The notes below the pieces were generated by a model. It did not search any database and was not told the origin of the DNA. It saw only the letters and a list, made by a program, of their open reading frames with translations. The position numbers were made by a program, and so were the translations under genes. 37,349 bases of DNA from a virus: positions 1 to 37,349 of IMG/VR virus record IMGVR_UViG_3300003690_000109; one strand, 5' to 3'. Shown in pieces: positions 4,997-12,281 of this stretch. Numbering within the stretch: the first letter of the stretch is position 1; each line of letters opens with the position of its first letter.

Positions 4997-5275
4997 ATGA
5001 CCACAGACACCTTCATCGACGGAACAATCTTCGGCATCATCGACAACGCCGTTCTCATCGTCGGCGCCTTCACCGGCCTCGAGGTCGAGAAGTATCTCCC
5101 CTTCAAGACCATCGGCATCGGCGCCGTCCTCGGCGCCGGCTGCGGCAACGCCGTCTCCGATCTGCTGGGCGGACTGCCCATCGACCTCGGCTTCGCCATC
5201 GGCACCTTCGCCGGCTGCATCCTCGGCCTGGCGATCATCCCGATGTTCATCGCAGCCAAGAAGGAAGCCGCCTAA
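4997..5275 (+). CDS. Small inner-membrane protein, first early gene
   Basis: A 92-residue hydrophobic protein with AAGGAG six bases before its ATG. Three stretches could span the membrane: about 10-29 (TIFGIIDNAVLIVGAF), about 39-55 (IGIGAVLGAGCGNAVSD) and about 62-86 (DLGFAIGTFAGCILGLAII), separated by an acidic turn (EVEKYLPF). The Gly-rich middle with G-N-x-x-S-D resembles small membrane proteins seen in cyanophages and other marine phages, whose function is unknown. As the first gene after the early promoter it may alter the host envelope early, for example in superinfection exclusion. That is inference only. Confidence 0.75.
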   Translation: MTTDTFIDGTIFGIIDNAVLIVGAFTGLEVEKYLPFKTIGIGAVLGAGCGNAVSDLLGGLPIDLGFAIGTFAGCILGLAIIPMFIAAKKEAA

Positions 5276-5634
5276 TGACCGTCCATGATCACATCAATCC
5301 TGTGTGCTGGAAGCGGGTAACCCTCAAGGCCGTGACAAAGAAATTTGTGAAGAAGGCAGAAGTCGCTGGCTTGAAAATCACAAATCTCAGCGTTGCCCGC
5401 ACCGGCACCGTCTACATCGCGGTCGCCATCGGCGACTGGGACGCCGAGTACCGTTGCTATGGGTCCGGTGATGAGCTGGACATCCGCATCTCAAACCACA
5501 AGTGCAGGGCTGGGGCGTGGAGCTTTGACGACAGGACAGATAATTACACCTTTCCTCACGCCGACTTGTCCTGTGCCGACGACATCGATGAGGCCATCAA
5601 AGACGCCGTTCAAACACTGGAGGGCTACCAATGA
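5275..5634 (+). CDS. Early protein of unknown function
   Basis: A 119-residue protein whose ATG shares a base with the previous stop (TAATG). It has a basic N-terminal part (KAVTKKFVKKAEVAG) followed by alternating strands (NLSVARTGTVYIAVAIGD, LDIRISNH), and an acidic end rich in Asp and Glu (CADDIDEAIKDAV). No membrane segment or known motif. An upstream in-frame extension to 4972 only shadows the membrane protein. It is coupled to the PAPS-reductase-like gene by a 4-base overlap. Confidence 0.65.
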   Translation: MTVHDHINPVCWKRVTLKAVTKKFVKKAEVAGLKITNLSVARTGTVYIAVAIGDWDAEYRCYGSGDELDIRISNHKCRAGAWSFDDRTDNYTFPHADLSCADDIDEAIKDAVQTLEGYQ

Positions 5635-6458
5635 AAATGACAGATAAAAAGGTAATCCACACCCAGACCACAATCGACCAGGCCGACTTCATCCAGGCCG
5701 AGATCGATGCCGGCTCTCTCTTTGTCATCAACCACTCCGGTGGCAAAGACAGCCAGGCGATGTACGCCGTGATCACTTCCCTGGTGCCGGCAAACCAGAT
5801 CGTCGTCGTCCACGCCGATTTGCGTGTCGCCGATTGGGCCTATCTGAAAAGCCACATCAGGGAAAACACCGATCACGACCTGGCCGTCGTCGCCGCCAAA
5901 GACGCCGCCGGCAACGACAAAGATTTTCTGACGATGGTCGAAGCTCGCCATGAGAAGCTCGAGGGTTCCACCAGCCCCTGGCCGAGCCCGTCCGTCCGTC
6001 AATGCACCTCCGATCTCAAGCGCACTCCGATCGAGAGCTTCATCAAAGCCGAGCTCAAGCGCCGGGGCCTGGACCGCGCCATCAACTGCATGGGCATCCG
6101 CGCCGAGGAAAGCGCCAACCGCGCCAAGCTTGCCACCTGGAAGATCAACAAGCGGTTCAACACCAAGACGACTAACCGCCAGGTCATCGACTTCCTCCCG
6201 ATCTTCGACCTCACCGAAGACGAGGTCTGGAAGATCATCGAGGCCTCTGGTCAGCGCCGGCACTTCGCATATGACCTGGGCATGAGTCGGTTGAGCTGCT
6301 GCTTCTGCATCATGGGCTCCAAGGCCGACCTCAAAGTCGCCGCCAAGGCGAACCCAGAGCTCTATAAGAGATATGTCGAGCTCGAGAAGAAGACCGGCTT
6401 CACCATGATGATGAACGAGAAGACCCTCGAAGAGAACACCGGGATTGCCATCGACTAG
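5631..6458 (+). CDS. PAPS reductase / adenine nucleotide alpha-hydrolase family protein
   Basis: A 275-residue enzyme with the PP-loop SGGKDS at residues 36-41, which binds the phosphates of ATP or of an activated nucleotide. Further marks are VVVHADLR, CTSDLKRTP, CMGIRAEES, FLPIFDLTEDEVW and a cysteine cluster, SCCFCIMG. Such cysteines in related proteins hold an iron-sulfur cluster. Family members reduce PAPS in sulfur assimilation or, as DndC-like proteins, help replace a DNA phosphate oxygen with sulfur. Which applies here cannot be told; there are no dnd partner genes in the window. It starts by ATGA overlap and its TAG stop is the first pairing strand of a hammerhead ribozyme. Confidence 0.75.
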   Translation: MKMTDKKVIHTQTTIDQADFIQAEIDAGSLFVINHSGGKDSQAMYAVITSLVPANQIVVVHADLRVADWAYLKSHIRENTDHDLAVVAAKDAAGNDKDFLTMVEARHEKLEGSTSPWPSPSVRQCTSDLKRTPIESFIKAELKRRGLDRAINCMGIRAEESANRAKLATWKINKRFNTKTTNRQVIDFLPIFDLTEDEVWKIIEASGQRRHFAYDLGMSRLSCCFCIMGSKADLKVAAKANPELYKRYVELEKKTGFTMMMNEKTLEENTGIAID

Positions 6459-6509
6459 CCGAAACGGCCTTCGGGCCGTCAGCCGGGCGTCACCCGGCTC
6501 TGATGAGGC
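6458..6509 (+). ncRNA. Type II hammerhead ribozyme, copy 1
   Basis: A self-cleaving RNA read on the plus strand. Stem II 5' strand GCC 6458-6460; core GAAA 6461-6464; stem III CGGCC 6465-6469 / GGCCG 6474-6478 with TTCG loop; U 6479 pairs with the last core A; C 6480 is the residue before the cleavage bond; stem I AGCCGGG 6481-6487 / CCCGGCT 6493-6499 with loop CGTCA; core CTGATGA 6500-6506; stem II 3' strand GGC 6507-6509. All invariant hammerhead bases are present. Stem II is the open end, which defines type II. Predicted cleavage is 6480/6481, 22 bases after the stop codon of the PAPS-reductase-like gene. Confidence 0.9.
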
Positions 6510-6536
6510 AGACACCTTAAACGACTGGAGATCAAG

Positions 6537-6911
6537 ATGACCAAACCGACACTCAACCACCCACCCCTCGCCAGCTTCAGGATCATCGAGTATGGCCGGG
6601 GCATCACCGGCCTGAAGATGGGGGCCACCCTGCGCCAAAATGTCATCGACTTCTGGGGTGGAAACCACGGTCGCCACAGCATCGTCAACGACGGCAATCT
6701 GGACAGGATCAACGGCCACTGGATCGGCTACGTCAAGAACAGCCGGGCCAGTGCCTCACCCCTGAAGATCACCCGCTGGCTCCTGAACCGGGCCGAGCTG
6801 AAGACCGGCGTTGAATTGAGCAAGGACAAGGACCAGCCCGCCAATCCGTCCAACGCTCCCGACTACGATGCCCCCGAGGAGGGCGACACCGGAAGCTACG
6901 GAGCCATCTAG
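6537..6911 (+). CDS. Early protein of unknown function between two ribozymes
   Basis: A 124-residue soluble protein. It has a GGAG ribosome site about 7 bases before its ATG and is preceded and followed by hammerhead ribozymes. The N-terminal half is basic and Gly-rich (LKMGATLRQNVIDFWGGNHG), the middle has NGHWIGYVKNSR and KITRWLLNRAELK, and the last 30 residues are acidic and probably disordered (PDYDAPEEGDTGSY). No known motif or membrane segment. Cleavage of both flanking ribozymes would release its coding region as a separate mRNA, so its amount may be set apart from the rest of the operon. Confidence 0.7.
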   Translation: MTKPTLNHPPLASFRIIEYGRGITGLKMGATLRQNVIDFWGGNHGRHSIVNDGNLDRINGHWIGYVKNSRASASPLKITRWLLNRAELKTGVELSKDKDQPANPSNAPDYDAPEEGDTGSYGAI

Positions 6912-6960
6912 CCGAAACCCCTTCGGGGGTCCACCGGGCGTCACCCGGTGCTGATGAGGC
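6911..6960 (+). ncRNA. Type II hammerhead ribozyme, copy 2
   Basis: Same architecture as copy 1. Stem II 5' strand GCC 6911-6913; GAAA 6914-6917; stem III CCCC 6918-6921 / GGGG 6926-6929 with TTCG loop; U 6930; cleavage residue C 6931; stem I CACCGGG 6932-6938 / CCCGGTG 6944-6950 with the same CGTCA loop; CTGATGA 6951-6957; GGC 6958-6960. Relative to copy 1, the first two pairs of stem I change from A-U, G-C to C-G, A-U, and stem III changes from five mixed pairs to four C-G pairs, so pairing is kept while sequence differs. It again starts on the last base of a TAG stop codon. Confidence 0.9.
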
Positions 6961-7003
6961 AGACACCTTTTAGGAGCTCAAAAGAGCTGAAGGAAACCAA
7001 GAC

Positions 7004-7858
7004 ATGACCATCAATAAAATCGAGATCAAGAAGACCGACAAGATGACCAACGACAAATACGATCGCGACGTTTTCGTGGACGGCATTTTTCGCGGCGCCT
7101 TCACGGCGACCTGGGGCGTCAACTGGAGCTTCAAAGACCTGGGCGATGAGCTGGTCGTCAGTGATGGCACCAGTGAAGGTCGGATGTTTGAGGATCGCTT
7201 CGTCGGCCATACCTTCCAGGCCCGCAGCATCGCCGACATGGACTTCATTGTTCGCGCCGCCCTCCACCTCAACCGTCTCCCCGATGCCACCGGCGTCGCC
7301 GATCGCGCCGATTGTCGCGCTGCATGGGACGCCTACCAGGACGCCGAGAACGCCGAGTATCGTCGCGTCGCGCTGATCGAAGAGAACGCCGTGGAGCTGC
7401 TCGCTGCTCTCCAGGCTGCGGCCTCGATGATCGATGGCTATGCAGAGGGGTCTGCTCCCGTCGTGAAACAGGTGGAAGCCGTCATCGCGAAGGCGACCGG
7501 CGAGGTGAAGGTCGAAGACGACGACGACCAGGCTGTCTGGTGGGACGCCGACACCTTCGAGACTTGCAAGCACGGCCACCTGGAATGCTCCGACAAGGCC
7601 GGCGGTCGTTGCTCCGATGAAGAGGCCGGCGCCATCAACCGGCTGCGCGATGCCCAGCGCCCCGACGACAAGCTGCTCGATGAGCTCACGAGCTGGGGCT
7701 CGGTCGAGGAGATGGTGAGGAACCTCCGCCAGGCGAACAATCACTACCGCCCAACGTGCCGCATCGATCTCGATCCCAGGTACGCCCAGGTCGCCGACAT
7801 CTTCGATCGCGAGATGGAAGCCATCAACGACAGCCGCCGCGCATGGAGGGTGTCTTGA
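7004..7858 (+). CDS. Early protein of unknown function with a Cys/His cluster
   Basis: A 284-residue acidic protein following ribozyme copy 2. Residues 1-90 look beta-rich (DVFVDGIFRGAFTATWG, WSFKDLGDELVVS). The middle is a long Ala/Glu-rich helix region (AVELLAALQAAASMID). At about residues 188-208 there is C-K-H-G-H-x-x-C, followed by a further Cys (GGRCSDEE), a possible zinc site. The end is Asp/Arg-rich helix. A small hairpin (AGCTC, AAAA, GAGCT) lies in its leader at about 6974-6987, followed by GAAGGAAA as ribosome site. Function unknown. Confidence 0.65.
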   Translation: MTINKIEIKKTDKMTNDKYDRDVFVDGIFRGAFTATWGVNWSFKDLGDELVVSDGTSEGRMFEDRFVGHTFQARSIADMDFIVRAALHLNRLPDATGVADRADCRAAWDAYQDAENAEYRRVALIEENAVELLAALQAAASMIDGYAEGSAPVVKQVEAVIAKATGEVKVEDDDDQAVWWDADTFETCKHGHLECSDKAGGRCSDEEAGAINRLRDAQRPDDKLLDELTSWGSVEEMVRNLRQANNHYRPTCRIDLDPRYAQVADIFDREMEAINDSRRAWRVS

Positions 7859-8450: not shown

Positions 8451-8671
8451 CCGATCGCATTTGTATCCACCTCATGGATGAGGCACCTCGCATCGGCAGC
8501 GGCATGAGGTTTGTCGATGTCATCTCTCGCGGCCCCAAGTGGGTCACGGTGAGGTGCAGTTCCTTCTTGCCGAAGGTGAAGGGCGATCGCAAGAAGCCCC
8601 AGCCCTACGCCGTCGTCAATCACAAGTTCCCTCGCGCCGTCTGGGCGCTGATCACAGGAGAGATCGCATGA
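8447..8671 (+). CDS. Small early protein of unknown function
   Basis: A 74-residue protein starting by ATGA overlap. It is probably a small beta fold: RICIHLMDEAP, MRFVDVISRGPKWVTVRCSS, then a basic loop KVKGDRKKPQP and AVWALITGEIA. No motif recognised. It is part of the row of short early genes typical of host-takeover or anti-defence functions, which is inference from position only. Confidence 0.55.
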   Translation: MTDRICIHLMDEAPRIGSGMRFVDVISRGPKWVTVRCSSFLPKVKGDRKKPQPYAVVNHKFPRAVWALITGEIA

Positions 8672-9114
8672 CCAACGTAACCAAACACACAAGAGCCGGC
8701 AAAAATGGCAAAGAGATTTTCTGCCCGAAGTGCGGCGGCAATCACATCGTCTACCACTTCGCCTGGTGCGCCGTCGAGTGCCAGACTTGCGAGGCGATGG
8801 TGGACAAAGAGGACTGGTATCTCGACGGCTGGAAGATCGAGGTCGATCAGAAGCTCAAGACAACGGACGACGATCTCCACTTCACCTTGCGCTTCAACCC
8901 CAGCGAAAACGATGAGCCGTTGATCGTCGTCGGGCGCGGCGACTTCCAGTGGCCGGCATACTGCCTGTCTAGCCTGGACGACGATGACTTCGATGGCTGG
9001 TGCGTGATGTCGCACCGCTACGACGGTTACGTCGCCGTCTCCGCCGAGGCTCACAAGGCCCTGGTCACTGAAGCTCACGCCGTCATCCTCAAGCACCTGG
9101 GAGAACAGACATGA
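8668..9114 (+). CDS. Early zinc-ribbon protein
   Basis: A 148-residue acidic protein with GGAGA just upstream and a 4-base overlap with its neighbour. An N-terminal zinc ribbon is visible: C-P-K-C-G-G at about residues 19-24 and C-Q-T-C at about 38-41. The rest is strand-rich and very acidic (KTTDDDLHFTLRFNPSEND, SSLDDDDFDGWCVM), then a helix (AHKALVTEAHAVILKHL). The acidic face may mimic DNA or contact RNA polymerase, as some early phage proteins do. This is speculation. Confidence 0.62.
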   Translation: MTNVTKHTRAGKNGKEIFCPKCGGNHIVYHFAWCAVECQTCEAMVDKEDWYLDGWKIEVDQKLKTTDDDLHFTLRFNPSENDEPLIVVGRGDFQWPAYCLSSLDDDDFDGWCVMSHRYDGYVAVSAEAHKALVTEAHAVILKHLGEQT

Positions 9115-12008: not shown

Positions 12009-12225
12009 CAACACCAAGAAAGTCGGCCTCTCGCCTGGCATGAGCGAGACGCTGAAGATGATCAAGGCCTTCATCAAGAAGAACGGTTTCGCGCCAAGCC
12101 ATCGAGAGCTGGCAGAGAAGAAGGGAACGACGGTGTCGAACATCAATCGATACGTCAACAGCCTCGAGGAGCGAGGTTACATCCGACGACTGCGAGGTCA
12201 ATCTCGATCGATCTCGATCGTGTAG
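12001..12225 (+). CDS. LexA-type DNA-binding domain without protease domain
   Basis: A 74-residue winged helix matching the N-terminal domain of LexA: LSPGMSETLKMIKAFIKKN, FAPSHRELAEKKGTTVSNI and LEERGYIRRLRGQSRSISI. The self-cleaving Ser/Lys protease domain that normally follows is absent, since the gene stops at 12225 before the terminator. It may repress phage promoters, compete with host LexA at SOS boxes, or both. It is the last gene of the early operon and overlaps the annealing gene. Confidence 0.75.
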   Translation: MDDNTKKVGLSPGMSETLKMIKAFIKKNGFAPSHRELAEKKGTTVSNINRYVNSLEERGYIRRLRGQSRSISIV

Positions 12226-12253
12226 CCTCGCGCCCGCGAAACAGGGACGACCA

Positions 12254-12281
12254 GGCCCCGCTTCGGCGGGGCCTTTTCTTT
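12254..12281 (+). terminator. Rho-independent terminator of the early operon
   Basis: Stem GGCCCCGC 12254-12261 / GCGGGGCC 12266-12273 with loop TTCG, followed by TTTTCTTT at 12274-12281. It is a textbook intrinsic terminator for plus-strand transcripts, 29 bases after the last early gene. The stop of the last minus-strand gene (12280-12282) touches its T tract, so it separates two converging transcripts. It lacks a T run in the minus direction. Confidence 0.92.

Follow-up and report, generated by a model that had tools for sequence, protein, structure and literature searches.

Type II hammerhead ribozymes in a phage operon lie against the stop codon of the upstream gene, a placement consistent with punctuation between messages

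What do self-cleaving ribozymes do between the genes of a phage? For the hammerheads of prokaryotes and phages this has been called an open question (PMC6155905), and it is posed here by two of them lying on either side of a single small gene. The window, meaning the whole stretch of DNA that was analysed, is a complete IMG/VR virus record of 37,349 bases. Its setting is that of a phage: head, tail and terminase genes occupy the minus strand, with the major head protein among their products, and a rightward block carries a phosphoadenosine phosphosulfate (PAPS) reductase-like gene, a serine recombinase and a YqaJ/RecE-like exonuclease (Pfam/PHROG profile matches). A sequence-only reading had placed two type II hammerheads in the early operon, at 6458-6509 and 6911-6960. 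Both were confirmed, the spans running exactly from stem II to stem II, and their position is indeed intergenic, in the rightward non-structural operon. The features of the locus are listed below.

5631..6458, plus strand: upstream gene, PAPS reductase-like, 275 aa (phrog_424, E 3.7e-37; Pfam PAPS_reduct, E 3.8e-13)
6456..6458, plus strand: TAG stop of the PAPS reductase-like gene, its G being stem II base 1 of copy 1
6457..6517, plus strand: type II hammerhead, copy 1 (RF02276, 51 bits; fold; motif parser)
6458-6460 and 6507-6509, plus strand: copy 1 stem II, GCC with GGC
6461-6464, plus strand: copy 1 GAAA
6465-6478, plus strand: copy 1 stem III with UUCG loop
6479-6499, plus strand: copy 1 U6479-C6480, then stem I at 6481-6499
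6480..6481, plus strand: predicted self-cleavage site of copy 1, C6480/A6481 (NUH triplet position in the hammerhead consensus)
6481..6931, plus strand: predicted 451-nt RNA if both ribozymes cut, with one full gene and its own Shine-Dalgarno, start and stop
6488-6492, plus strand: copy 1 loop I, CGUCA
6500-6506, plus strand: copy 1 core, CUGAUGA
6511..6513, plus strand: copy 1 tail GAC, predicted to pair with GUC 6489-6491 of loop I as a 3-bp pseudoknot
6527..6530, plus strand: Shine-Dalgarno GGAG for the gene at 6537..6911
6537..6911, plus strand: inter-ribozyme gene, 124 aa, flanked by both hammerheads (ORF position)
6909..6911, plus strand: TAG stop of the inter-ribozyme gene, its G being stem II base 1 of copy 2
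6910..6968, plus strand: type II hammerhead, copy 2 (RF02276, 45.1 bits; fold; motif parser)
6911-6913 and 6958-6960, plus strand: copy 2 stem II, GCC with GGC
6918-6929, plus strand: copy 2 stem III with UUCG loop
6930-6950, plus strand: copy 2 U6930-C6931, then stem I at 6932-6950
6931..6932, plus strand: predicted self-cleavage site of copy 2, C6931/C6932 (hammerhead consensus)
6939-6943, plus strand: copy 2 loop I, CGUCA
6951-6957, plus strand: copy 2 core, CUGAUGA
6975..6989, plus strand: small hairpin, 5 bp with a 4-nt loop, between copy 2 and the next Shine-Dalgarno (folding)
7004..7858, plus strand: downstream gene, 284 aa, no assigned function, Shine-Dalgarno at 6989-6995

Rfam cmscan with all 4227 families matched the type II hammerhead model RF02276 to copy 1 at E=9e-8 and to copy 2 at E=3e-6 (2e-11 and 7e-10 for this genome alone). 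Both bit scores lie above the gathering score of 37, and the type II identity proposed from the letters thus holds up in a covariance-model search. No further hammerhead of any type was found in the record even at E≤1, and no other Rfam family reached its gathering score there. A weak SorY-like match at 12195-12281 (27.8 bits against a cut-off of 111), near the convergence of rightward and leftward genes, is probably chance or a terminator. By Rfam alignment and fold, both copies contain CUGAUGA, GAAA and the U-C, with stems I and III closed and stem II open; stem I has 7 bp and the loop CGUCA in each, and stem III is closed by C(UUCG)G. The three-helix hammerhead is the minimum-free-energy fold of each 63-mer. 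Folding energies were unexceptional against shuffles (z of -1.6 for copy 1 and -1.2 for copy 2), and the case for the ribozymes therefore lies in core and covariation, not in stability.

Between copy 1 and copy 2, stem I changes from A-U to C-G and from G-C to A-U, correctly described before, and pairs 2 and 3 of stem III change from G-C to C-G. Stem III had been called rewritten with pairing kept; the pairing is kept, and the rewriting comes down to two pairs plus a stem shorter by one (beyond A15.1-U16.1, copy 1 has 5 bp and copy 2 has 4). A fragment of a relative phage (L123/L367, IMGVR_UViG_3300008217_002635) carries three type II hammerheads, two of them of the same architecture as the window pair. 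The four copies of this architecture differ at pairs 2 and 3 of stem III and pairs 1, 2 and 4 of stem I, and all five varying positions are fully compensated, as counted from core-anchored positions in place of the MAFFT alignment A1, which misplaces stem III of copy 2. The pair changes between copies and against the relative thus all keep pairing, and the claim of covarying stems stands. The reading of the pair as two independent solutions of one fold was overstated: these are two paralogues, and common origin with compensatory change explains them equally well. Core and CGUCA loop, noted earlier as identical, are so, as are tail and loop III, and the copies look like relatives that diverged with compensation. 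Further to that, in 351 pattern matches (among the matches listed) picked on core, GUC and stem II only, with the outer stems left free, stem pairs were formed in 85–91% of cases versus 43–51% with shuffled partners. By core and covariation, both window copies are very probably working ribozymes.

How fast they would cut is another matter. The tail after stem II is AGAC in both copies and is predicted to form a GUC/GAC pseudoknot of 3 bp with loop I. Among the motifs listed, 230 of 373 have a loop I-tail pseudoknot of at least 4 bp, compared to a mean of 116 and a maximum of 130 with shuffled tails, and a compensatory variant, CGGCA/GCC, occurs at another locus. Most type II motifs have at least 4 bp here, and shortening strongly lowered activity in a tested example (PMC3088659). 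Cleavage of the window copies may therefore be slow, their pseudoknot being shorter than in most type II motifs. We also noted a further type II subclass, in which loop I has 3 nt and stem II is often GGCC (L012/L371 and many other listed loci); in 93 motifs with such loops, among the matches listed, the pseudoknot averages 1.99 bp versus 1.95 for shuffled tails, so that without a signal above shuffled tails their tertiary contact must differ. The window pair shares with the published type II hammerhead (RF02276, PMC3088659) the core, the open stem II of 3 bp, the closed stems I and III, a tail placed to pair with loop I and an intergenic location in phage or prophage, and differs in the pseudoknot (3 bp versus the usual at least 4) and in a loop I of 5 nt.

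In the window, each upstream TAG ends on the first base of stem II, and the next start codon follows stem II by 27 nt (copy 1) and 43 nt (copy 2), each with a Shine-Dalgarno. The homologue of the PAPS reductase-like protein in the relative phage is alignable up to residue 274 of 275. The same layout recurs widely. Three samples of motifs were drawn, two from IMG/VR with different stem II patterns and a third from the genomes of bacteria and archaea; the upstream stop was taken as the end of the longest upstream ORF, and exact duplicates were removed, related records in part. The upstream stop lay at -12..+3 nt of the ribozyme 5' edge in 213 of the 285 viral type II motifs listed (75%; 97/133 and 116/152 by sample), compared to about 4.5% at random positions, and in 42/76 of the bacterial and archaeal motifs listed; over the three samples random positions gave 3.6–4.6%. 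Registers 0 and +1 were the commonest, both window copies being at +1, and few upstream stops fell inside the ribozyme among the motifs listed. The next start came at a median of 24–28 nt past stem II among the matches listed, with a Shine-Dalgarno in about nine of ten.

Two controls bear on whether such stops are genuine. The stop triplet at register 0 or +1 ended the longest local ORF in 38/51, 49/67 and 14/26 of those listed (75%, 73% and 54%), versus 134/1058, 134/1209 and 68/615 random stop triplets (11–13%). Judged by codon composition, the frame of the edge stop ranked first of the six in 54/89, 70/101 and 20/37 of those listed, where 1/6 is expected. Because of these controls, the edge stops look like real gene ends. 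They replaced a crude six-frame check of orientation by the longest frame from stop to stop, whose result around the motifs was too noisy in G+C-rich DNA. The survey shows that placement at the stop codon is a general rule for type II hammerheads among the viral motifs listed. The words "stop codon" do not appear in Perreault et al. 2011 (PMC3088659), and no prior statement of the rule was found in the literature searched, which is not proof of novelty. Compact genomes, together with a requirement that ribosomes stay clear of the core, could by themselves explain the rule.

We consider it reasonably probable that the type II hammerheads are punctuation, splitting the polycistronic transcript of the rightward operon into complete single-gene mRNAs. 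The operon would be transcribed as one polycistronic RNA, in which each ribozyme would fold after its 3' tail emerges and cut after C6480 or C6931. Such a cut would fall between the upstream stop and the downstream Shine-Dalgarno, and every product would therefore be a complete message, still translatable. The upstream product would end about 22 nt past its stop, with a very stable C(UUCG)G hairpin and a 2',3'-cyclic phosphate, and the downstream product would begin at the 7-bp hairpin of stem I, carrying a 5'-hydroxyl. We infer that such ends would slow 3'-exonuclease and 5'-end-dependent decay and alter mRNA stability, and that expression of neighbouring genes would be uncoupled, as by the engineered hammerhead insulator RiboJ. 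Hairpin-capped ends and the RiboJ effect (transcript up about twofold) suggest a gain in stability and insulation. Since the stop lies on the ribozyme edge, translating ribosomes would not cross the core, and one in the act of terminating would occupy the 5' half of the ribozyme for a short time. Unmasking of the Shine-Dalgarno by cleavage was not supported: its predicted exposure is about equal in cut and uncut RNA for both copies.

The arrangement has precedents. Clusters of hammerheads, type II included, flank single prophage genes (Perreault et al. 2011, PMC3088659); three were found to cleave in vitro, those of Agrobacterium tumefaciens ardA, Azorhizobium caulinodans and Clostridium scindens, and the Agrobacterium one also in E. 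coli. Transcript processing into single-gene mRNAs was proposed by the same authors (PMC3088659). As in these clusters, at least two same-strand ribozymes in the window flank a gene (ORF 6537-6911); the differences are that the window genes are a PAPS reductase-like gene and one for a 124-aa protein, that the record is a podovirus-like phage and that cleavage is predicted. The anti-restriction gene ardA is adjoined by hammerheads in that study (PMC3088659), and an ORF further along the window operon, 8539-9114, weakly matches Lar-like restriction alleviation proteins (E 4e-4). A tandem pair had been thought unusual for a phage operon. That view cannot be kept, clusters having been reported already (PMC3088659) and at least two copies within 1.5 kb occurring in 15/86 and 17/94 hammerhead-bearing viral loci among the matches listed (~17–18%). 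Some viral records listed hold 5–10 type II hammerheads (up to 10), and successive ribozymes in arrays are spaced about one gene apart (median about 0.5 kb among the matches listed). The window pair adds another example to a kind of element, and to an arrangement, that were already known.

Two other systems resemble it in part. In HHphage of haloviruses HF1/HF2 the ribozyme likewise sits just ahead of a start codon within an early viral operon, although with a variant core and an archaeal host; in an archaeal-virus hammerhead the cleavage site coincides with a mapped 5' end. RiboJ is also a self-cleaving hammerhead trimming the 5' end of a message ahead of the ribosome-binding site, although it is synthetic and promoter-proximal, whereas the window elements stand between genes and would also form the 3' end of the upstream message. 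The RiboJ layout includes a hairpin before the Shine-Dalgarno, which the hairpin at 6975-6989 after copy 2 resembles.

A stronger version of the proposal makes the stop codon an integral part of a dedicated operon-punctuation class, in which termination and self-cleavage would compete for the same bases and cutting, dependent on ribosome traffic, would yield single-gene mRNAs. Competition between termination and folding is possible because the stop overlaps the ribozyme; we hold this version to be rather doubtful.

An unlikely alternative treats the elements as DNA-level linkers or selfish modules, which would spread or supply homology for the shuffling of gene cassettes, cutting being incidental. 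The relative phage lends it some colour. L367 shares with the window a 98%-identical gene (window 5275-5634, L367 8774-9159), the PAPS reductase (46%) and a homologue of the inter-ribozyme gene, in a shuffled order. The 124-aa protein had no match in Pfam or PHROG, and a direct IMG/VR search with it found nothing; its relative, a hammerhead-flanked ORF 57% identical over 89 residues, was reached via the neighbouring PAPS reductase. The block 6452-6544 (ribozyme, Shine-Dalgarno and ATG) is 90% identical to L367 8200-8290, with different genes on both sides. A hammerhead stands directly upstream of the 98%-identical gene in L367 and none does in the window, and the element is therefore dispensable at a given gene, which counts against the punctuation reading. 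However, the homology breaks at 25/102 hammerhead junctions versus 104/442 other junctions. A recombination hot spot was thus not supported (24.5% versus 23.5%, the 102 exposures being few and non-independent). At the same time, compensatory pairs and an intact core point to conservation of RNA structure, not of DNA identity.

Several further observations concern these and other relatives. Window gene 5275-5634 overlaps its upstream neighbour (TAATG), and its homology with L367 starts precisely with the start codon. Copy 1 and the second L367 copy differ by one compensated G-C to C-G swap and, as the sole core change, at position 7 (CUGACGA); that ribozyme (L367 8203-8268, L123 about 5427-5490) is otherwise intact and compensated. 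Core position 7 is free in the hammerhead consensus. CUGACGA was also seen in L368, L369 and L373, CUGAAGA in L371 and CUGAGGA in L370. The hammerheads of L368 and L369 (reverse strand, about 1953 and 1897) have a common 3' half (stem I, core, tail and next gene) and a different 5' half (stop and stem III); this looks like the outcome of recombination close to the cleavage site that preserved pairing. An extended ribosome-binding sequence, (T)GACTGGAGA, stands before many L123 genes (about 4580, 4893, 5490, 5617 and 5980) and at window 6523; GACTGGAG occurs once in the window. No hammerhead was found in the stretches scanned of Methylophilales phage MEP301 (head-tail connector 58% identical) and of Labrenzia phage vB_LagS-V1 (weak PAPS reductase match).

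The edge position of the stop also admits a conditional switch, in which cleavage would be slow or regulated (by the weak pseudoknot, translation termination or a ligand) and would respond to ribosome traffic on the upstream gene. The pseudoknot of just 3 bp and a stop overlapping stem II, at which a terminating ribosome would lie over the core's 5' half, are consistent with such control. A need to exclude ribosomes from the ribozyme would, however, account for the stop rule just as well, and we regard a switch as distinctly improbable.

Excision of the RNA of gene 6537-6911 by the pair, followed by religation through the hammerhead or an RtcB-type ligase into a circular mRNA, is very unlikely in our judgement. 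The chemistry would allow it, the ends being 5'-OH and 2',3'-cyclic phosphate, and RNA circles made by hammerheads are known from plants and animals. The window copies are identical in core, loop and tail, and a chimeric stem II, in which the 3' strand comes from copy 1 and the 5' strand from copy 2, would pair 3/3. Stem II in the window would thus be compatible with a circular-RNA element of the retrozyme kind, whereas in 33 of the 139 adjacent pairs within 2 kb listed, the first L367 pair among them, the chimeric stem II is not fully pairable. Circularisation is therefore not what arrays in general are selected for. Furthermore, single-copy hammerheads are common, and circular or spliced products were sought by Perreault et al. 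and none found (PMC3088659). Hardest to credit is that both copies are inactive relics, a reading that the weak pseudoknot and the 4/18 consensus hammerheads inactive in the tests of Perreault et al. would suit, since the cores are complete, the stems compensated and both copies high-scoring, whereas decay would lose pairing.

The stop rule favours processing of the message between genes over recombination or obligatory circularisation. The general stop register is the part of these results most worth keeping, as it narrows the question of what hammerheads do in phages and prokaryotes.
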